Notes under the pieces: generated by a model
Databases searched by the model: none
What the model saw: only the letters and a program-made list of their open reading frames with translations
Told to the model about the DNA's origin: nothing
NCBI GenBank assembly: GCA_027484025.1
Contig: JAIXTI010000101.1
Span: forward strand, 1-52,818
DNA: 52,818 nt
Direction: 5' to 3'
Origin: a bacterium
Lineage (GTDB): Bacteria > Gemmatimonadota > Gemmatimonadetes > Gemmatimonadales > Gemmatimonadaceae
Part shown: positions 41,265 to 50,195 of the stretch, in pieces
Numbering within the stretch: the first letter of the stretch is position 1
How the letters are laid out: the number at the start of each line of letters is the position of its first letter
Made by a program: the position numbers and the translations under genes

Positions 41265-44200
41265 ATGCCTTTCTCTGTTACGCCACCGGACGGACTGGTT
41301 ACGCTGTCGTCGAATGCACGCACGGTGCTCGACAAGCGGTACCTCGTAAAGGACAAGTCCGGTACGTCAATCGAGAAGCCGGAGGACATGTTCTGGCGGG
41401 TGGCGACGGTGGTGGCCGAGGCCGACCGGCGCTACGGCGCGAGCGACGGGGCGGTGCAGGCGCTGGCGGAGGAGTTCTACTTCCTCATGACGCAGCGCCG
41501 GTTCGAGCCGAACTCGCCGACGCTCATGAACGCCGGCCGTCCGTTGGGGCAGCTGTCGGCCTGTTTCGTGTTGCCGGTGGAGGATGCGCTGAGCAACGGG
41601 CAGAACGGCATTTACGACACGTTGCGCAGCATGGCGCTCATCCATCAGTCCGGCGGCGGCACCGGCTTTTCGTTTTCGCGGTTGCGCAGCAAGGGGAGCA
41701 TGGTGCGCAGCACGACGGGGGTAGCGAGCGGTCCCATTTCGTTCATGGAGCTGTACGACGCGAGCACCGACGCGGTGAAGCAGGGCGGCACGCGTCGCGG
41801 CGCGAACATGGGCATTCTGCGCGTCGATCATCCGGACGTGCTCGACTTCATTGGCAGCAAGGAAGACCTCAGCAAGATCACGAACTTCAACATCTCGGTG
41901 GGGATCACCACGAAGTTCATGGACGCGCTCAAGGCCGACGGGTCGTACGATCTCCTCGATCCGTCGAACGGGGCCGTGGTGGGGCAGCTGCGCGCGCGCG
42001 AGGTGTGGGATCGCATGATTCTGGGCGCGTGGCGCACGGGCGAGCCCGGCGTGTTCTTCATTGACGAGGCGAACAAGTACAACCCGGTGCCGCATTTGGG
42101 GGCGTATGAGGCGACGAACCCGTGTGTCACGGGCGACACGCTCGTCTCGACGACGCACGGTCTCGTGCCCATCGCGCAGATGGCCGAGCGGGGTGACGCG
42201 GCGGGTGTCACGCTCGATTCACGTTTCAGCGCCGGCAAGGTGGGGCCGGCCGGCGTGCCGTTCGCGAGTGGCGTGAAGCCGGTATTCCGCGTGGTGACGC
42301 GCGAGGGCTACGAAATTCGCGTGACGGCCGATCACCGGTTCATGACCGCGCGGGGCTGGGTGGAAGCGCAGGCGCTACAGCCTGGTGATGCGCTGCACAT
42401 CCAGAACACCAAGGGCGGGTTTGGTGTTGAGGGCACGAGTGAGGAGGGGCGGGTGCAGGGGTGGCTTTGCTCGTCAAACGAGGTGACGACGCCGGAGTGG
42501 ATGGGTGGTATGGCGGCCGAAGGCGGTGCCGCGACCAAGCTCGATCGCGTTCCGGCAACGCTCGTTGCTGGTAGCGAGGCGATGCAGCACGGTTTCCTGC
42601 AGGCGCTCTTTACGGCGGATGCCCAGGTGGAATCCGCCCGACTCGTGCTCTTCGGTGAGTCGACTGTGCTGTTGCAGGACGTCCAGCGTATGCTTCTCAA
42701 CTTCGGTATTGCTTCTTCGCTGGAGGGCACATCGACGCTCGCGATCGAGCGTGAAAATGTGCAGCGCTTTGCAACCGAGATCGGTTTCGTCGGCGATGAA
42801 CGCAACGCGGATCTTGCAGCGTGTGTAGCGAGCAGCCGCGGACACGAGGCATTCACCGCCCGGTTCGACGCGCTGGTGCCTGCCGGTGAGGAGATGGTGT
42901 ACGACCTCACCGAGCCGCTCACGCACTCGTTTATCGGCAACGGATTCGTGGTGCACAACTGTGGCGAACAGCCGCTCCTCGCCTACGACGTGTGCAACCT
43001 GGGGTCGGTGAACCTTGGCTACTACGTACGCAACGGGCAGGTGGACTGGGATGCGATGCGTCGCGACATCGCGCTCAGCACGCACTTCCTCGACAACATC
43101 ATCGACGTCAACAAGTACCCGCTGCCGGAAATCGACGCGCTGAGCAAGCGCATTCGCCGCATCGGGCTTGGCGTGATGGGCTTTGCCGACATGCTCGTTC
43201 GACTCGGCATTCCCTACGACAGCGCCGAAGGGGTGGAGATGGGTCGTCGGGTGATGGAGTTCCTCGACGTCGAGGGGAAGAAGGAGAGCGAGCGACTGGC
43301 CAAGGAACGTGGTGCGTTCCCCGAGTGGGCGCGCAGTATCTGGGGGCCCGACGAAACGTGTGCGCGCGATGCGCAGGGGCAGCGCATTCGCCCCATGCAG
43401 CTGCTTCGCAACTGCAACGTGACCACGGTCGCGCCTACGGGAACCATCTCCATCATTGCCGGCTGTTCGAGCGGGCTCGAGCCGTTGTTCGCGGTGGCGT
43501 TCATGCGCAATCAGGCGGGCGTGATGATGCCCGACGTGAACGAAGATTTCGTGGCGATCGCGAAGGCCGAAGGGTGGTATAGCGACGAGCTGATGGAGCG
43601 CATTGCGAAGACGGGAAGCGTGAAGCATCCGGAGGTGCCGGTGTCGTGGCAGCGGGTGTTCAACACCGCCAACAACATCGCGCCCGAGTATCACATCCGC
43701 ATGCAGGCGGCGTTTCAGCAGCACTGTGACTCGGCGATCTCCAAGACCACCAACTTCGGTCACGCGGCCACGGTCGACGACGTGCGCGCCATTTACGAGA
43801 TGGCGTACGACATGAAATGCAAGGGCGTGACGGTGTATCGCGATGGTTCGCGCGACGGTCAGGTGCTGAGCACGGGCGCTACGCAGGATGCGGCGGCCAA
43901 GCGTGATGGCGCCGCCGCCGCACCGGCTGCAGGCGACGCGAAGACTGATGGCAAGGATGTCGCGGTGCTCAAGCGTGAACTCGGCGAACTGCAAGGCACG
44001 ATGGCCGAGCTGCAGAGCGAACTGGAACGCACGAAGAAGGCGCTGTTCACTGCGGAAGCGGAGAACGCGAACCGTCGCGGCAAGCGCTCACGCCCGGAAG
44101 TGATGCGCGGCACCACGTACCGCAAGGATACGCCGCTCGGCACGATGTTCGTGAACATCACCGAAGACGAGAAGGGACAGCCGTTCGAAGTGTTCCTCAA

Positions 44201-44681
44201 CCTCGGCAAGGCGGGTGGGAGTGCGATGGCCGATGCCGAGGCAATTGGCCGGCTCATTTCGCTCGCGTTGCGCAGCGGTATTTCGATGCAGGAAATCCAT
44301 CGCCAGCTGCGCGGTATTTCGAGCGATCGTGCGGTAGGGTTGGGTCCCAACAAGGTGTTGTCGTTGCCCGACGCGGTGGGCATTGCGCTGGAGCAGTGGT
44401 GGCGCGAGAAGCAGGGAGTGCAAACGGACATGCTGAGTGGCGGTTCCGCTGCGGGAATGAGTTCGTTCCCACCCGCGAGTTTGTCACCGTTGCCGACACC
44501 GGCCGCCGGTGTGCCCATTACGCGTCCCCCGATGGCTGCTGAGCAGGCGCAATCGCAGATGGATTTTGGGAACGTGGGCGGCGAGGTGTTCATGGGCACC
44601 TGTCCCGATTGCGGCTCGCAGCTGGAGTTCGCGGAAGGGTGCGTGAAGTGCCACGTGTGCGGGTTTAGTGAGTGCGGGTGA
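41265..44681 (+). CDS. nrdJ: Adenosylcobalamin-dependent (class II) ribonucleotide reductase containing an intein
   Basis: The precursor is 1138 aa; splicing out residues 287-565 would leave 859. The enzyme reduces ribonucleotides to deoxyribonucleotides using a B12-derived radical. N-extein motifs are PNSPTLMNAGRPLGQLSACF (Cys of the disulfide pair), QSGGGTGFSFSRLR and GGTRRGANMGIL. The conserved NPCGEQPLL is interrupted after NP; the following Cys is the predicted thiyl-radical residue and CNLGSVNL carries the second disulfide Cys. After a coiled-coil linker near 890-930 come a TSCPD-type domain and a C-terminal CPDC...CHVC cysteine cluster. AGGAG precedes ATG 41265. Confidence 0.97.
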   Translation: MPFSVTPPDGLVTLSSNARTVLDKRYLVKDKSGTSIEKPEDMFWRVATVVAEADRRYGASDGAVQALAEEFYFLMTQRRFEPNSPTLMNAGRPLGQLSACFVLPVEDALSNGQNGIYDTLRSMALIHQSGGGTGFSFSRLRSKGSMVRSTTGVASGPISFMELYDASTDAVKQGGTRRGANMGILRVDHPDVLDFIGSKEDLSKITNFNISVGITTKFMDALKADGSYDLLDPSNGAVVGQLRAREVWDRMILGAWRTGEPGVFFIDEANKYNPVPHLGAYEATNPCVTGDTLVSTTHGLVPIAQMAERGDAAGVTLDSRFSAGKVGPAGVPFASGVKPVFRVVTREGYEIRVTADHRFMTARGWVEAQALQPGDALHIQNTKGGFGVEGTSEEGRVQGWLCSSNEVTTPEWMGGMAAEGGAATKLDRVPATLVAGSEAMQHGFLQALFTADAQVESARLVLFGESTVLLQDVQRMLLNFGIASSLEGTSTLAIERENVQRFATEIGFVGDERNADLAACVASSRGHEAFTARFDALVPAGEEMVYDLTEPLTHSFIGNGFVVHNCGEQPLLAYDVCNLGSVNLGYYVRNGQVDWDAMRRDIALSTHFLDNIIDVNKYPLPEIDALSKRIRRIGLGVMGFADMLVRLGIPYDSAEGVEMGRRVMEFLDVEGKKESERLAKERGAFPEWARSIWGPDETCARDAQGQRIRPMQLLRNCNVTTVAPTGTISIIAGCSSGLEPLFAVAFMRNQAGVMMPDVNEDFVAIAKAEGWYSDELMERIAKTGSVKHPEVPVSWQRVFNTANNIAPEYHIRMQAAFQQHCDSAISKTTNFGHAATVDDVRAIYEMAYDMKCKGVTVYRDGSRDGQVLSTGATQDAAAKRDGAAAAPAAGDAKTDGKDVAVLKRELGELQGTMAELQSELERTKKALFTAEAENANRRGKRSRPEVMRGTTYRKDTPLGTMFVNITEDEKGQPFEVFLNLGKAGGSAMADAEAIGRLISLALRSGISMQEIHRQLRGISSDRAVGLGPNKVLSLPDAVGIALEQWWREKQGVQTDMLSGGSAAGMSSFPPASLSPLPTPAAGVPITRPPMAAEQAQSQMDFGNVGGEVFMGTCPDCGSQLEFAEGCVKCHVCGFSECG
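42123..42959 (+). other. Intein inserted in NrdJ directly before the radical cysteine
   Basis: 279 residues in frame within nrdJ. It begins C-V-T-G-D-T-L-V (block A, Cys1), has block B with the T-x-x-H motif (RVTADHRFM), and ends with block F VYDLTEPLTHSFIGNGF and block G VVHN, then Cys+1. All standard splicing residues are present, so it should be active. The centre holds one DOD-homing-endonuclease-like motif (GFLQALFTADAQV, where DG has become DA) followed by LLQDVQRMLLNFGI. I see no second LAGLIDADG copy. The homing endonuclease is therefore probably decayed and the intein now fixed. Confidence 0.95.
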
Positions 44682-44772: not shown

Positions 44773-44811
44773 GAAAACGGGTGCTGACCATGCTGGTCGG
44801 CACCCGTTTTC
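44773..44811 (+). terminator. Strong intrinsic terminator after nrdJ
   Basis: GAAAACGGGTGCTGACCA and TGGTCGGCACCCGTTTTC form an 18-bp stem with one wobble and a 3-nt loop. The T-rich sequence TTTTCTGTTCTT follows. It lies about 90 nt after the nrdJ stop. Confidence 0.88.
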
Positions 44812-44851
44812 TGTTCTTGAAGGTCGACGCCGACTGCGGTAGCTTTCGGAT

Positions 44852-44964
44852 GTGCGGTGATTTCCCAGGCTTGACGGGCCGCACACCGGGGCATGCCCCG
44901 TCCATTCCGTCTAAGTCGCAGCGGCGAGCGCCGGCGACCCATTACCTGGGTCACCGGCGTTTTT
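44852..44964 (+). ncRNA. Candidate riboswitch-like leader with alternative terminator
   Basis: Outer helix P1: CGGTGA (44855-44860) with TCACCG (44951-44956), and CCCAGG (44864-44869) with CCTGGG (44945-44950), separated on the 5' side by a TTT bulge. Inside are P2, GACGG/CCGTC (44873-44877, 44907-44911), enclosing the palindrome CGGGGCATGCCCCG, and P4, GTCGC/GCGAC (44915-44919, 44934-44938). The alternative is a terminator: CGCCGGCGACCC (44929-44940) with GGGTCACCGGCG (44948-44959), then TTTTT. P1 and P4 each use bases of the terminator, so the two folds exclude each other. I do not recognise a known riboswitch class. Pairing was done by eye. Confidence 0.6.
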
Positions 44965-44980
44965 GCCTTTGGAGGGGCCC

Positions 44981-45052
44981 ATGCCGCTGGCTCAATCGAT
45001 TTCTAGTTCAGAAGGTCGGCTGTTCGACCCGCACCGCCGGAGCAGCCGATGA
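44981..45052 (+). CDS. 23-codon leader ORF downstream of the structured leader
   Basis: ATG 44981 is preceded by GGAGGGG at ideal spacing, the best ribosome-binding site in this region. The peptide is 23 aa (starts MPLAQSISSSEGRL, ends HRRSSR). Its TGA overlaps the ATG of the next gene (ATGA), so translating it would deliver ribosomes to a start that lacks its own Shine-Dalgarno. No codon runs typical of amino-acid attenuators are seen. It may be a coupling leader or a real small protein. Confidence 0.6.
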   Translation: MPLAQSISSSEGRLFDPHRRSSR

Positions 45053-45843
45053 CCGTGTCGCTGTCCCGGTCGTTCCCCATCGAGACCGGCATCGCTCTCG
45101 ACTTCCGGCCGTCGAGCTACGTCGCCGATTGGTGCGCCACCGCGGCGGCGGTGCAGAACATCGTGGGCGAGGAGCGACGTGAGCGGGTGCATCAGCGGCT
45201 GGCGGCGGGGGGGCTGCGCGCACCCATGCCCGAGCGCCTACTCGCGGATCACCTCACGGCGCGGCTGCGCGATAAGGTGGTCGCCCTCGATCCTGCGCGG
45301 AACATCAGCGGGGAGTATCTGCCACCGTACGAGCCGGGCGAGAACGAGATCGCCCGTGTCGTATTGGGCACCACCCCGCGCCTTGTCTACAGTCTGCGCG
45401 CGTGGACGCGGATGCTTCCGGGAAAGCGCCCGCACTTCGGGAAGTCGACGCGACGCACCGGGGAGGACCACAAAGTGTACCGCCTCGTCGGAGAGGGCGG
45501 CGTGCTCTTCAGCATGCCTTCACCGTGGTCGGTCGGGCCCCTGTCGGTGCGAGAGCTAATCCAGCTCATTGATCGCGTGCAGGCCCCGCATCTGGACGAC
45601 GTGCCGACACACTTGCCGTTTCCTGAGGCCTTGGTGTGGTGGCGCGCACGCCATGAGCATGACGGCCGCGCGCTGCAGCGCTTTGTTCGGGTTTCGAGCG
45701 TGGTGTACCCGGAACTCGGGGCCTTCTACCGTCAACGACTCCGCTGGTGGGTCGCTGGCCGACTTGCCCGCCCGTCTGAGTGTATGCGATTCGCCGACGC
45801 GCTGGACCGAGCGATGGAGGGGTGTTGGCAACGCGCCCGGTGA
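45049..45843 (+). CDS. Unknown protein in a phosphatase-linked cassette
   Basis: 264 aa, no signal peptide or membrane segment. Landmarks are FRPSSYVADWCATAA near the start, SGEYLPPYEPGENEIARVV in the middle (possible beginning of a beta-rich domain), a YRLVGEGGVLFSMPSPWSVG segment, and PLSVRELIQLIDRVQ. The C-terminal third is Arg/Trp-rich and helical. The central part resembles a widely scattered family of uncharacterised proteins, but I cannot name it. Start 45049 is within the leader-ORF stop, and its own stop holds the GTG of the phosphatase, so the two proteins are made in a coupled way. Confidence 0.7.
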   Translation: MTVSLSRSFPIETGIALDFRPSSYVADWCATAAAVQNIVGEERRERVHQRLAAGGLRAPMPERLLADHLTARLRDKVVALDPARNISGEYLPPYEPGENEIARVVLGTTPRLVYSLRAWTRMLPGKRPHFGKSTRRTGEDHKVYRLVGEGGVLFSMPSPWSVGPLSVRELIQLIDRVQAPHLDDVPTHLPFPEALVWWRARHEHDGRALQRFVRVSSVVYPELGAFYRQRLRWWVAGRLARPSECMRFADALDRAMEGCWQRAR

Positions 45844-46394
45844 CCAGCGCTCCACCGGTTCGAGACATTCCGTGCCTTTTTTCACCGCGATACTTCACGG
45901 TCATCCACCCGCGGTTTTGGGGTGGCGAGCATCCGTGTTCCGGCGGAGCTGCCAGAACGCAGGCGGCGCGACTTACCGCGTTGCTGGACGCGGGGGTGAC
46001 GACTTTCGTCGACCTCACGGAACATGGTCGGGAAAACGGCGTGGCGTCGTACGCTCGACAATTACGTGGGCGGCGGCGGGGATTGTCGGTGGCCTACTTC
46101 AATTTCCCCATGCCGGATGCACAGGCTCCACGGTGTCGTGCGCAGGTGGAGCAGGTGCTGGACGTGGTTGATGCGGCGCTGGAGAATAGAGAGACGGTGT
46201 ACCTGCATTGTCGGAGTGGTATTGGGCGCACCGGCACTATGCTCGCCCTACATCTGGTTCGGCACGGGTACGCGCCCACGGACGCGTTGCGGCACATCGA
46301 AGCGGCGTGGCGTCGGGATGGGCGCAGTCTGGTGTGGCCGCGTTGCCCGCAAACGGAAGGGCAGAGGAGGTACATCATGGAGACGGTCAATTGA
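45840..46394 (+). CDS. Tyrosine/dual-specificity-type protein phosphatase
   Basis: 184 aa from GTG 45840 (GTGA overlap). The P-loop HCRSGIGRTG near residue 130 has the catalytic Cys and Arg of the C-x5-R family. The general acid Asp is probably in YFNFPMPDAQ, about 30 residues earlier. The N-terminal WGGEHPC and TTFVDLTEHG are typical of bacterial members of this group. The protein should dephosphorylate phosphotyrosine or another phosphate ester; the coupled neighbour at 45049 is a natural candidate partner, by inference only. The next gene begins in its stop codon (TTGA). Confidence 0.87.
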   Translation: MTSAPPVRDIPCLFSPRYFTVIHPRFWGGEHPCSGGAARTQAARLTALLDAGVTTFVDLTEHGRENGVASYARQLRGRRRGLSVAYFNFPMPDAQAPRCRAQVEQVLDVVDAALENRETVYLHCRSGIGRTGTMLALHLVRHGYAPTDALRHIEAAWRRDGRSLVWPRCPQTEGQRRYIMETVN

Positions 46395-46847: not shown

Positions 46848-46881
46848 AACACTTGACAGCATTTCAAAGTGTTTGTACTAT
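46848..46881 (+). promoter_or_regulatory. Sigma70-type promoter with overlapping inverted repeat
   Basis: TTGACA (46853-46858), a 17-bp spacer and TACTAT (46876-46881) form a near-consensus promoter, unusual here. AACACTT (46848-46854) and AAGTGTT (46867-46873) are perfect inverted repeats that overlap the -35 and spacer, where a repressor could bind. Transcription would start near 46888, about 42 nt before the NYN-protein ATG. Confidence 0.8.
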
Positions 46882-46929
46882 ATTGTCGTCGCCATACGGT
46901 TCCCTCAAATCGCCAACCGGGAAATCCTA

Positions 46930-47466
46930 ATGTTCGCCTCGTCCAAAGCATCCGCTGCACGGTCGCTCTGTCTGGTCCCAGACCGTGTTATCCCTCGTGC
47001 GAAGCAACTCCCCGCCGGACGCGCCCTGCATCTCGTGGATATCGAGAACCTCGCCGGTGCCGCCCGGGAATACCGCTGTTCCGCAGGTGAGGCGCTGGCG
47101 CAGTACCGCGCGCTGGCCGGAGTGACGGAGGGGGATCACGCGGTGATCGCCGCTGGCGGCCCCATGGCGTTCCGTGCCGGCCGTCTGTGGCACGGTGCCC
47201 GTGTCGTGGCGGCACGCGGACTGAATGGCGCCGATCTGGCCCTGATCAGCGAGGTCAGTGTCCCGGAGGCTATCGCCGCGCGCTTCGACCGGGTCGTCAT
47301 CGGCTCAGGGGACGGCATCTTCGTCGAGTCCATCAACGCCCTGCGTCGGCTCGGTATTCCCGTTGGGGTGGTGGCGCCTATCGGGGGACTCTCGGCGCAT
47401 AGCTACCGCGCGGCTTCGTTCGTCCGCGTTATGCTACCCGCGTTGTCGCATCAGGAGGCGGCGTGA
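46930..47466 (+). CDS. NYN/PIN-like domain protein, possible ribonuclease
   Basis: 178 aa from ATG 46930. The fold shows a first strand with LHLVDIENLAG (acidic residue plus Asn), a middle GADLALISEV, and a strand ERVV-like FDRVVIGSGDGIFVESINAL, then GIPVGVVAPI. Three Asp residues spaced this way match the metal-binding acids of NYN/PIN nucleases. The protein would cut RNA, though no activity is shown. It opens the restriction island, has its own strong promoter, and its stop overlaps the GTG of the methylase-specificity gene. Confidence 0.78.
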   Translation: MFASSKASAARSLCLVPDRVIPRAKQLPAGRALHLVDIENLAGAAREYRCSAGEALAQYRALAGVTEGDHAVIAAGGPMAFRAGRLWHGARVVAARGLNGADLALISEVSVPEAIAARFDRVVIGSGDGIFVESINALRRLGIPVGVVAPIGGLSAHSYRAASFVRVMLPALSHQEAA

Positions 47467-50195
47467 GCGACTCGCAGCAAAACGCTCGTGTGACGGTGAG
47501 CGAGATTGCGCAGATCGCGGGCGTGTCTGTGTCCGCCGTGTCGAATTGGCGCAAGCGTTACGCTGACTTCCCAGTTCCTGTCGAGGGGACAGCCGCGGGA
47601 GATTTCTTCGCATTGAACGACGTGATTCCGTGGCTGGATCGTCGCGGGAAAAAGGTACGTGCTCCCAAGCAGGTGGGGCTCGGTGAGCTCATCGTCGGTG
47701 CCTCGGAAGCTCTCCGTGGTGAAGGGGCCGCCAACGAGTCGCGGTTACTCGCCCTACTGCAGGTGCTCACTGTTTCTCGCTTCTCTGTCGCGTCGAAAAC
47801 TCGCAACGTGCCTGGAAACGCCTTGGCGTGGTCAGGCCTCATGGCCGCGTCCGTGGACCACTTGCCCATCGCATGGCAGCTTGCCGTCGAGGCCCTACCC
47901 GTCGGCGAGACTTCTGCCGTGCGCGAGGTTCTCGAAACTCCAGCGATCTCTTGGGCCGGTGTACAGAAGCTGCTTATCGCGATTGATCGACTTGCCCGAG
48001 ACGGCATGCGCGACGCGAGTCCGCGGGTGTTTGGCGAAGCCATCTCCCTCGTGATCCATCAACTGCAGGAGTCCCAGGCGATTCGTGTCTTCGGTTCTGC
48101 AACTCCGAAGAGCCTGACGTCGATGATGGTGCGGCTGCTCTCACCAATTGAGGGCGTCGTCTACGATCCGGCCGCAGGACACGCGATGGCCTTGGCTGAG
48201 GCCGCAAGGCAGGCTCAGGGCAAAGCGATCCAGCTCGTCGGGCAGGAAATCTCAGAGTACAGCTGGCGCGTCGGTGTGCTGCATCTCGCTCTTTGCGGAC
48301 TCGAGGGAAACCTCAACAGGGGGGACACGCTGCTGCATGATGCCTTTCGTGGACAGGAGGCTGACCGGATCATTCTGGATCCACCCCTCAATGCGCGGCT
48401 TAGCTCCACCGACATCGTCTTCGATCCCCGTTGGAAGTACGGTACCTCCAACGTGGCGGATTGGATGTGGGCGCAGCACCTCATTCAGCATCTCGGGCCG
48501 AACGGTATCGGCGTCATGGTGGCATCGATGGGAAGCCTGGCCCGCGGCGGCCGCGATGCGATGATCCGCGCTCGTCTTATCGAGGCGGGTGAACTGGATG
48601 CCGTTATCGCTCTTCCGCCCGGTCTCGTCGCGGGGACTAATGTGTCCATCGCGCTGCTGCTCTTCGACCGGTCGCGTGTGGGGCCTCGGGGAGATGTGCT
48701 CTTCATCGATGCACGACAGCTTGGTATGTCGAGACGCGGGCTCACGAATGAGCTGACTCCCGAGGCGATCACCAAAATTGACGATGCGGTGCGTGTGTGG
48801 CGTTCAGGGCAGTCAGTGTCCGAGCCAACGTTTGCAGCCGTCGCCAGTGCCAGCGAAATCCTTGGACACCCGTCCACGCCTCGTGATCAGGAGGCCCACC
48901 CTGACCTTACGCCGAACCGATTCATCCGGTATGTCGCGGCGGTGGCGGAGGGGGCGGCGCTGTCAGAGCTGCAGCAGATCCATTCGACGCTTGTCGCATC
49001 GGGGCGTTCGCTCGCCGACCTAGGAGGATTGAGGTCAGCGGTAACTGCAGCTGCCGCACGCCTGACGGCATCGCAGGTCGAATGGCCGTCCGTCCGTCTC
49101 AAGGACGTTCTTGAGGAACGTCCCGTCGCCGGTAGCCGAATTGATCCGGACGGTGACGAGGATGAGAGGCCGTTTGTATCTACGACTCTCGTTACCGGCA
49201 GTGGAGGAAGACTTACGCAAGTACCCGAGGACACCACGCGCAGTCGTCGAAAGGCGCGCACTGCGCAACGTGGGGACGTGCTGCTGGCATCTCGAGGCAT
49301 CGACGGCTCGAGTCGTCGGGTGTCGTGTGCAACTGTTGAAGTAGACGCGGATCTGGCCTTCAGCGATTCGCTGCTCTTGCTCACGCCCAAGGCAGACCTC
49401 CTGAACCCGGATTACCTGAGGTATGCCCTGACTTCAAGTTCAGGTGTGTCCGCCCTGGCCGCCCTTGCCACCGGCACCACCATCGCCAACATCCGACCGG
49501 ATGCACTTATGGAACTCGAAATCCGTGTTCCTCCCCTCGATGTGCAGAGGCAGATGGTAACGTCGTTGCGCGCGGTTGAGCAGGCGTCAGAAACGTTGGC
49601 CTCGGCTACGCAGCAAGTATCGGAGCTTTTCAACCTGCTTCGGAACGGTGCGTCAGTGGGCCTTTTGGCGCCGACAGCCCCGGGCGATGCCGACGACTCT
49701 GTGGTGGGTTCAGGGCCCAGTCAAAATCCGCTGACCCATCCCGTTGGCATTTGCGTGGATGGCGGCCCTGACGCTCCTCGCGGGCATCACTGGTTCAGCG
49801 ATGATCGGGTGGCACTGCGTTGGTATCTCGACAATCATGTAGTCCCCATGCTGAAGCGCAGTCATGACGCAGATCAGCTCTCCGCTGTGGAATACGCGCG
49901 GGTGTGGGCGGAGAAGCGAGGGGTCGGGCTGTCATTGGCAGCTTCATCGATCAACGCTGCCACCGCTCCGAAGATGCGCGTGGCATGGGTCGGAACCTTC
50001 GACGAACTGCGTGGCGGATCATCCACGTACGCGCGGTACCTCTGTGCAGAGTATTGGGAGGCCGTTCAAGGCGATGGAACCTTTCGTCGGCGCTGCAACC
50101 CCGACGAGATGATCCCAGAACAGCGGGGCATCTTCGACGAAGACGTCGAACGGTTCATCTCCATGCTCAACACGTTTGACTCGCAACCGACCTGA
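47463..50195 (+). CDS. HTH-methylase-specificity fusion, type I restriction-modification-like
   Basis: 910 aa from GTG 47463 (GTGA overlap; AGGAGG upstream). Residues about 12-58 are an HTH (SEIAQIAGVSVSAVSNWRKR). About 200-420 is an N6-adenine methylase domain in which motif I reads DPAAGHA (235; usual form DPACGSG) and motif IV reads DPPL (306; usual NPPY/F). About 540-735 is one type I target-recognition domain (VRLKDVLEE, RGDVLLASRGI, IANIRPDALMELEIRVPPL). A final ~170 residues are unassigned. The altered motifs suggest reduced or absent methyl transfer, perhaps leaving a DNA-recognition role. A canonical HsdM follows. Confidence 0.8.
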   Translation: MSDSQQNARVTVSEIAQIAGVSVSAVSNWRKRYADFPVPVEGTAAGDFFALNDVIPWLDRRGKKVRAPKQVGLGELIVGASEALRGEGAANESRLLALLQVLTVSRFSVASKTRNVPGNALAWSGLMAASVDHLPIAWQLAVEALPVGETSAVREVLETPAISWAGVQKLLIAIDRLARDGMRDASPRVFGEAISLVIHQLQESQAIRVFGSATPKSLTSMMVRLLSPIEGVVYDPAAGHAMALAEAARQAQGKAIQLVGQEISEYSWRVGVLHLALCGLEGNLNRGDTLLHDAFRGQEADRIILDPPLNARLSSTDIVFDPRWKYGTSNVADWMWAQHLIQHLGPNGIGVMVASMGSLARGGRDAMIRARLIEAGELDAVIALPPGLVAGTNVSIALLLFDRSRVGPRGDVLFIDARQLGMSRRGLTNELTPEAITKIDDAVRVWRSGQSVSEPTFAAVASASEILGHPSTPRDQEAHPDLTPNRFIRYVAAVAEGAALSELQQIHSTLVASGRSLADLGGLRSAVTAAAARLTASQVEWPSVRLKDVLEERPVAGSRIDPDGDEDERPFVSTTLVTGSGGRLTQVPEDTTRSRRKARTAQRGDVLLASRGIDGSSRRVSCATVEVDADLAFSDSLLLLTPKADLLNPDYLRYALTSSSGVSALAALATGTTIANIRPDALMELEIRVPPLDVQRQMVTSLRAVEQASETLASATQQVSELFNLLRNGASVGLLAPTAPGDADDSVVGSGPSQNPLTHPVGICVDGGPDAPRGHHWFSDDRVALRWYLDNHVVPMLKRSHDADQLSAVEYARVWAEKRGVGLSLAASSINAATAPKMRVAWVGTFDELRGGSSTYARYLCAEYWEAVQGDGTFRRRCNPDEMIPEQRGIFDEDVERFISMLNTFDSQPT

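Follow-up and report, generated by a model that had tools for sequence, protein, structure and literature searches.

Leader and gene neighbourhood

The window, the whole stretch of 52,818 nucleotides analyzed here, carries a 126-nt leader ahead of two genes, and the features of leader and genes are given on the plus strand. The first gene (45049-45843) encodes a 264-aa protein that falls into no Pfam, NCBIfam or PHROG family, and the second (45780-46394) a dual-specificity-type protein phosphatase (Pfam Tc-R-P, 1.6e-19; PTP-SAK, 6.4e-15). The first-pass annotation had named the locus a phosphatase cassette, a label that does not fit, since the phosphatase comes second and is found near only 5 of the 81 leaders compared below; it was thus ruled out as the point of the system. 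A ribosome site, GGAGGGG at 44971, directly follows the leader, as annotated. At this site, after the terminator, starts an upstream ORF of 23 codons (44981-45052), whose ATGA stop overlaps the next start and which is near-identical in locus L004. Since in L091 and L106 the gene starts directly at the ORF position, the original start of the gene may have been displaced here and now serve translational coupling.

On the upstream side lies the gene for a ribonucleotide reductase large chain (41265-44681), which contains an intein with a LAGLIDADG domain; in the gap that separates this gene from the element, a hairpin and T-run resembling a terminator were noticed by eye at about 44774-44810. Downstream of the phosphatase, the stretch 46873-50195 encodes an NYN-like protein (below the Pfam cut-off) and then a 910-aa N6 DNA methylase that also has a type I specificity domain and weakly matches HTH, the methylase being shared with L104. 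This neighbourhood is restriction- or defence-like.

The promoter and terminator scan of the window gave nothing at its thresholds. A probable promoter can nevertheless be proposed at 44817-44845 (TTGAAG, 17 nt, TAGCTT), which would start transcription just before helix P1; it is weak and had no match in the strict scan. Among the 81 leaders, TTGAC occurs upstream of the motif in 39 (7.2 in shuffles) and a -10-like hexamer within the last 18 nt before it in 63 (7.8 in shuffles). The window promoter, weak as it is, thus probably occupies the same position as in its relatives.

The strands named in the first-pass annotation are all present in the sequence: CGGTGA (44855-44860) and CCCAGG (44864-44869) face CCTGGG (44945-44950) and TCACCG (44951-44956), giving a bulged outer helix of 12 Watson-Crick pairs, and the terminator arms and TTTTT are likewise in place. 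Among 200 dinucleotide shuffles of the leader, none gave a helix of 12 or more pairs whose strands are separated by 60 bases or more (0/200), and five gave one at any distance; a 12-pair outer helix at that strand distance is not expected by chance. The leader itself folds better than 200 of 200 shuffles (z -2.8). Compared as bare helix sets without a pseudoknot, the annotated fold (-41.1 kcal/mol) and the set of P1, hairpin and terminator (-41.8 kcal/mol) have near-equal energies, which is what a switch should show. Unconstrained minimum-energy folds of the leader contain the terminator and lack the annotated outer fold.

A conserved pseudoknot motif

A DNA search recovered a second copy of the motif, 88% identical, in the window's own genome, and matches in 16 of 61 genomes, own genome included; the match in G047 (L017) covers query positions 69-101 only, with no visible motif. 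A covariance model, R1, was built from 18 copies including that of the window. The aptamer of the window (44849-44918) scores 78.7 bits against it (E 4.9e-14), being itself part of the seed. In the window's genome (92.9% complete), R1 finds the motif only at the two cassettes with the 264-aa gene; no model match at E≤10 was obtained at its metK or at three loci resembling MetY (38-45% identical). Across Gemmatimonadota, R1 detected the motif in 60 of 395 genomes and 26 of 138 genera, the match in G037 being probably false and the copy of G314 being truncated where its contig ends.

An exact pattern scan of 84,980 species genomes (genome_contigs) returned 39 stretches: 27 labelled Gemmatimonas, Gemmatimonadaceae, Gemmatimonadales, Gemmatimonadetes or Gemmatimonadota, one Roseisolibacter, one Candidatus Kuenenia, and ten contigs labelled Acidobacteria, Acidobacteriota, Vicinamibacterales or Vicinamibacteraceae. 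The label Candidatus Kuenenia stuttgartiensis (L135) is probably wrong. No stretch with the exact motif pattern was present in the viral contigs. Of the 39 stretches, 24 were taken as loci already in the set and 15 were added. Not counted among the resulting 81 leaders are L082, a match of 29.3 bits that reads as coding sequence and was taken as false; L080, incomplete at the end of its contig; L033, L034 and L040, which duplicate L099, L111 and L094; and model matches at 16.7-23.6 bits.

The motif has a constant order: P1, GAUUU, the 5' strand of a pseudoknot (CGAYUUGACGG), P1', a variable hairpin and the 3' strand of the pseudoknot (CCGUC-U-AAGUCG). In the window, P1 is formed by TGTGCGGT (44851-44858) and GCCGCACA (44878-44885). 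The local hairpin GTGCGG/CCGCAC (44852-44857 and 44879-44884), previously read as a third, competing state, lies within this helix and is conserved in the family. GAUUU (44859-44863), a putative third strand of a triplex, is found in most aligned copies, some carrying GGUUU, GUUUU or AGUUU instead. The pseudoknot 5' strand GGCUUGACGG (44868-44877) has its partners at 44907-44911 and 44913-44917, within the 3' strand (44907-44918) that bears a bulged U at 44912. UAAGUCG is near-invariant in this strand, with exceptions in L079 (CUGUCUUG) and L081 (UAAGGCA), and the part preceding it compensates changes of the 5' strand. Directly after P1 stands the variable hairpin P3 (44887-44900); in A2, a MAFFT alignment of 18 sequences, 77% of its cells are paired and four of eight pairs show two-sided change. 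The aptamer is thus the local hairpin plus a pseudoknot that was absent from the annotated fold.

To assess covariation, the 81 copies were aligned to R1 (alignment A4) and its 80 distinct rows were counted. As R1 models just P1 and P3, this alignment was made without any constraint from the pseudoknot. P1 and the 11-pair pseudoknot are paired in 97.4% of 1515 cells. Two-sided change affects 12 of 19 pairs and 63 cells, against 4.5 and 13.7 in shuffles; kinship among the sequences inflates these counts and, since the window's genus supplies about one third of the 81 rows, cell counts are not event counts. None of 500 shuffles matched the real alignment on any of five measures, and sliding the partners by 1-3 columns lowered pairing to 20-43%. 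All eight counted P1 pairs have two-sided changes (95.3% of cells paired). In the pseudoknot, the five pairs below the bulged U are paired in 100% of cells and the six above it in 97.9%, with the variants GACGG/CCGUC, GAUGG/CCAUC, GAUGG/CUAUC, GGUGG/CCACC, GGCGG/CCGCC, GUUGG/CCAAC and GAAGG/CCUUC. The compensatory types are spread over different genera and both phyla. The covariance-model search across Gemmatimonadota proposed in the first-pass annotation thus yielded a family with compensatory changes in P1 and the pseudoknot, and not homologous leaders devoid of covariation.

Downstream genes and relation to known SAM riboswitches

Genes of methionine and SAM metabolism follow the motif in most places. 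According to gene context and Pfam searches on representatives, 28 of the 81 leaders precede MetK and 26 precede MetY and/or a MetX-homoserine dehydrogenase fusion (MetX-Hom), so that 54 stand before one of these genes, the placement expected of a SAM regulon. All ten Acidobacteriota copies are located before metK. In ten leaders a member of the 264-aa family is encoded within 5 kb (in L133 the gene starts about 1.6-2 kb downstream). The remaining 17 leaders have neither met genes nor the 264-aa family nearby; among them, L069 and L056 are at contig ends, L054 is next to a peroxiredoxin and L086 next to a SNF2-type helicase.

A known SAM element often stands in series with the motif. The Rfam tandem scan covered 78 of the 81 leaders, with L029, L036 and L038 outside. 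SAM-II (RF00521, above the gathering cut-off) was found after the motif on the same strand in 23 of these 78 leaders, all 23 before metY/metX, and no second element was found by Rfam at the gathering cut-off in the 28 metK leaders. SAM-I (RF00162) matched after the motif in 4 of 11 loci at E≤1, L057 (48.5 bits) lying above the cut-off and L078, L053 and L137 below it, with seven unmatched. The diverged SAM-I (S-box)-like elements are at L057:3046-3149, L078:4920-5041, L053:4651-4756 and L137:1843-1952. By eye, an S-box-like element was also seen after the motif in L056, L060, L064, L066, L069, L070, L071, L073, L077, L079 and L133. These elements stand mostly ahead of hypothetical genes, seven copies align well (alignment A6), and they may represent an unrecognised S-box variant.

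The motif itself received no name from Rfam: no family matched it at E≤10 in 18 loci and one short stretch, at E≤1 in 11 loci, or at the gathering cut-off in further leaders. The RF01826 model gave no motif match at E≤10 in the same 18 loci, the short stretch and the window's genome, where Rfam SAM_V found nothing at this threshold, and the RF00521 model matched only the downstream neighbour in tandem loci, never the motif. The earlier remark that the element matches no known class agrees with these Rfam scans; in architecture, on the other hand, it resembles the pseudoknot riboswitches SAM-II and SAM-V. As in these, the P1 loop pairs downstream to form an H-type pseudoknot, and both helices covary.

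In PMC6061858, SAM-V is described as consisting of P1, a seven-nucleotide third strand, P2 and a hairpin P3 right after P1, with U47 in the P2 3' strand pairing with the adenine of SAM beside base triples. The new motif shares with SAM-V (RF01826) the H-type pseudoknot, a third strand between P1 and the pseudoknot, a P3 directly after P1 and ahead of the pseudoknot 3' strand, and a bulged U adjoining U-A pairs. It differs in having five pairs below this U (three in SAM-V, as deduced from the same text), two residues (GA) before UUU and a longer P1. Most copies of the motif carry a terminator in place of control of translation at the ribosome site, the SAM-V mode. Furthermore, the motif occurs in Gemmatimonadota and Acidobacteriota, whereas SAM-V is reported there from marine alphaproteobacteria and Bacteroidetes.

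With SAM-II (RF00521, SAM_alpha), the motif has in common a loop that starts with GAUUU (GAUUUG in the RF00521 consensus), directly after P1, and has UUG a few residues before its end, together with C-U-AA in the 3' strand; these core residues occupy the same topological places in both, a correspondence established by eye. SAM-II is likewise described as controlling mostly transcription (PMC6061858). The motif departs from it by a hairpin in place of the A-rich loop and by a longer pseudoknot. The SAM/SAH riboswitch (RF01727) is also reported as a small pseudoknot before metK (PMC2864571), but it did not match in Rfam and its binding region, as described in PMC7367207, is different. Since no Rfam family matched and the pseudoknot is apparently two pairs longer below the bulged U, the best reading of the sequence is a variant within the SAM-II/SAM-V kind that is a member of neither RF00521 nor RF01826. 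No report of the motif appeared among the matches listed in the literature search, subscription papers being mostly outside its scope.

Strand exchange and interpretation

In the window, the aptamer is followed by an intrinsic terminator (44930-44964), with arms at 44930-44940 and 44948-44958, a U-tract (TTTTT) at 44960-44964 and an energy of -21.0 kcal/mol alone. By a crude finder, 69 of the 81 leaders have a hairpin followed by a T-run. In 66 it starts no more than 12 nt from the aptamer; in L054, L068 and L125 it starts 58-88 nt downstream. The finder gave no terminator in the other 12. One divergent copy without a terminator found, L081:5028-5090(-), lies about 20 nt before metK and may act on translation.

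The pseudoknot and terminator strands follow each other in the order PK5, PK3, T5, T3, which offers two exchanges. In 58 of 81 leaders (12.6 in shuffles), the stretch from +6 to +36 behind the aptamer contains GCGAC, complementary to GUCGC/GUCG of the pseudoknot 3' strand (PK3), and in the window it would allow an antiterminator hairpin, GUCGC(AG)CGGC/GCCGGCGAC (44915-44938). Of 69 leaders compared with shuffled arms, 23 had better pairing of PK3 with T5 at p≤0.05 (window p 0.06) and 11 better pairing of PK5 with T3, the equivalent of the annotated outer helix (window p 0.3), with 3.5 expected by chance in each case; both tests are rough, since the finder sometimes extended the stems, that of the window included. 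The outer helix (44855-44956; 44855-44869 with 44945-44956) was taken in the first-pass annotation as a helix that encloses two others. Its strands exist, but with the annotated P4 they would belong to an antiterminated, ligand-free state, as its possible outer part, rather than to the aptamer, and with 11 of 69 leaders the helix is a weak candidate for a family-wide antiterminator and is not a generally conserved feature.

From the metK context and the layout of the strands, we infer both ligand binding and the direction of control. In the bound state, PK5 would pair with PK3 and T5 with T3. SAM would be received by the bulged U together with the U-A pairs that lie above this residue, GAUUU supplying the third strand, and AAGUCG would thereby be locked into the pseudoknot; the terminator 5' arm GCCGGCGAC would then be released, the terminator would form and transcription would stop before the gene. 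Without ligand, AAGUCG(C) would capture this 5' arm, and the resulting PK3-T5 hairpin could be nested inside a PK5-T3 helix. Indeed, CGGUGA-UUU-CCCAGG of the window copy could also hold the terminator 3' arm. RNA polymerase would then read through into the genes for the 264-aa protein and the phosphatase.

The earlier proposal of a transcription-attenuating, riboswitch-like element is strongly supported by the relatives in two phyla, the compensatory changes, the terminator, the possible strand exchange and the met genes behind 54 of 81 leaders. As to what it senses, we regard as the probable answer an OFF riboswitch of the SAM-II/SAM-V type that acts on transcription and stops it upon SAM binding. 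Covariation, the genes that follow, the SAM-II and SAM-I elements downstream, the layout and the recurrent GCGAC speak for this reading. Against it stand the 17 leaders with neither met genes nor the 264-aa family nearby, the lack of any Rfam match, the differences from SAM-V in pseudoknot and third strand, the limited number of leaders with significant strand exchange, the leaders in which the finder placed no hairpin close by, the terminator that the unconstrained folds of the window's leader hold already without ligand, and the failure to find the motif at the metK and MetY-like loci of the window's genome. Since 23 of the 78 leaders scanned stack the motif before SAM-II, the ligand could also be a different one. 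The fold and the switch would then be unchanged, but respond to another compound of the methionine cycle (SAH, methionine, homocysteine or a SAM relative), and a downstream SAM-II or SAM-I element would add the second input of a two-input gate; for a close variant of a SAM aptamer, sensing of spermidine is reported (PMC10853860). This alternative seems rather improbable to us, because 28 of 81 copies stand before metK without a second Rfam element, where SAM is the expected signal, and because tandems for one and the same ligand are common (SAM-II/SAM-V, 149; SAM-II pairs, 44; PMC9481103).

The sequence is also compatible with a leader bound by a regulatory protein and not by a metabolite, but near-invariant residues in the pseudoknot and third strand, as in SAM-II, and the sharing of the element by two phyla make this a distinctly improbable explanation. 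We give hardly any credence to ordinary terminator pairs lacking a conserved sensor: GC-rich leaders do fold readily, and a 12-pair helix arose at some distance in 5 of 200 shuffles, but the motif is conserved with covariation in two phyla.

SAM riboswitches are a main test case for different RNA folds that recognize one ligand. The SAM-type OFF switch favoured here would give SAM-II/SAM-V a relative that controls transcription and occurs in two phyla, no Rfam 15 family having matched it in the scans, and suggests how many of these bacteria may control metK. Leaders with two consecutive SAM-type elements are already described (PMC9481103 and PMC11508383); here the new motif and its terminator come first and the SAM-II or SAM-I-like element second, offering natural two-riboswitch leaders for the study of tandem logic. 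More speculatively, and with appreciable doubt on our part, the motif could form a separate SAM-sensing class (provisionally 'SAM-VII') that arose or diverged in Gemmatimonadota and Acidobacteriota, with a longer pseudoknot, that serves as a first gate before SAM-II and SAM-I-like elements, possibly for different ligands, and controls the 264-aa family as a new part of SAM homeostasis.

Of 395 genomes, 14 contain a match to the 264-aa family, counting the window's own, and the motif is located upstream in 7 of the 16 places with such a match. Among the relatives, the sole domain trace is a sub-threshold NAD_binding_9 in one protein (E 0.032), and the AlphaFold model (mean pLDDT 72.5) had no PDB match at E≤0.001. 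As to the role of the protein, the one hint is its recurrent position behind SAM-type elements, which suggests that the family is probably SAM-regulated. Weak divergent aptamers (22.1-25.6 bits) are present at most about 140 nt upstream of a 264-aa family gene at L162:1211-1306, L163:1351-1431 and L164:2042-2122(-); these copies carry CUAAAGC, SAM-II having CUAAA, and are possibly intermediates towards SAM-II. A doubtful match of 17.3 bits lies about 480 nt upstream of the family gene in L158. At L156 and L166, neither of which matches the new motif, an S-box-like element was recognized by eye before the 264-aa family gene.
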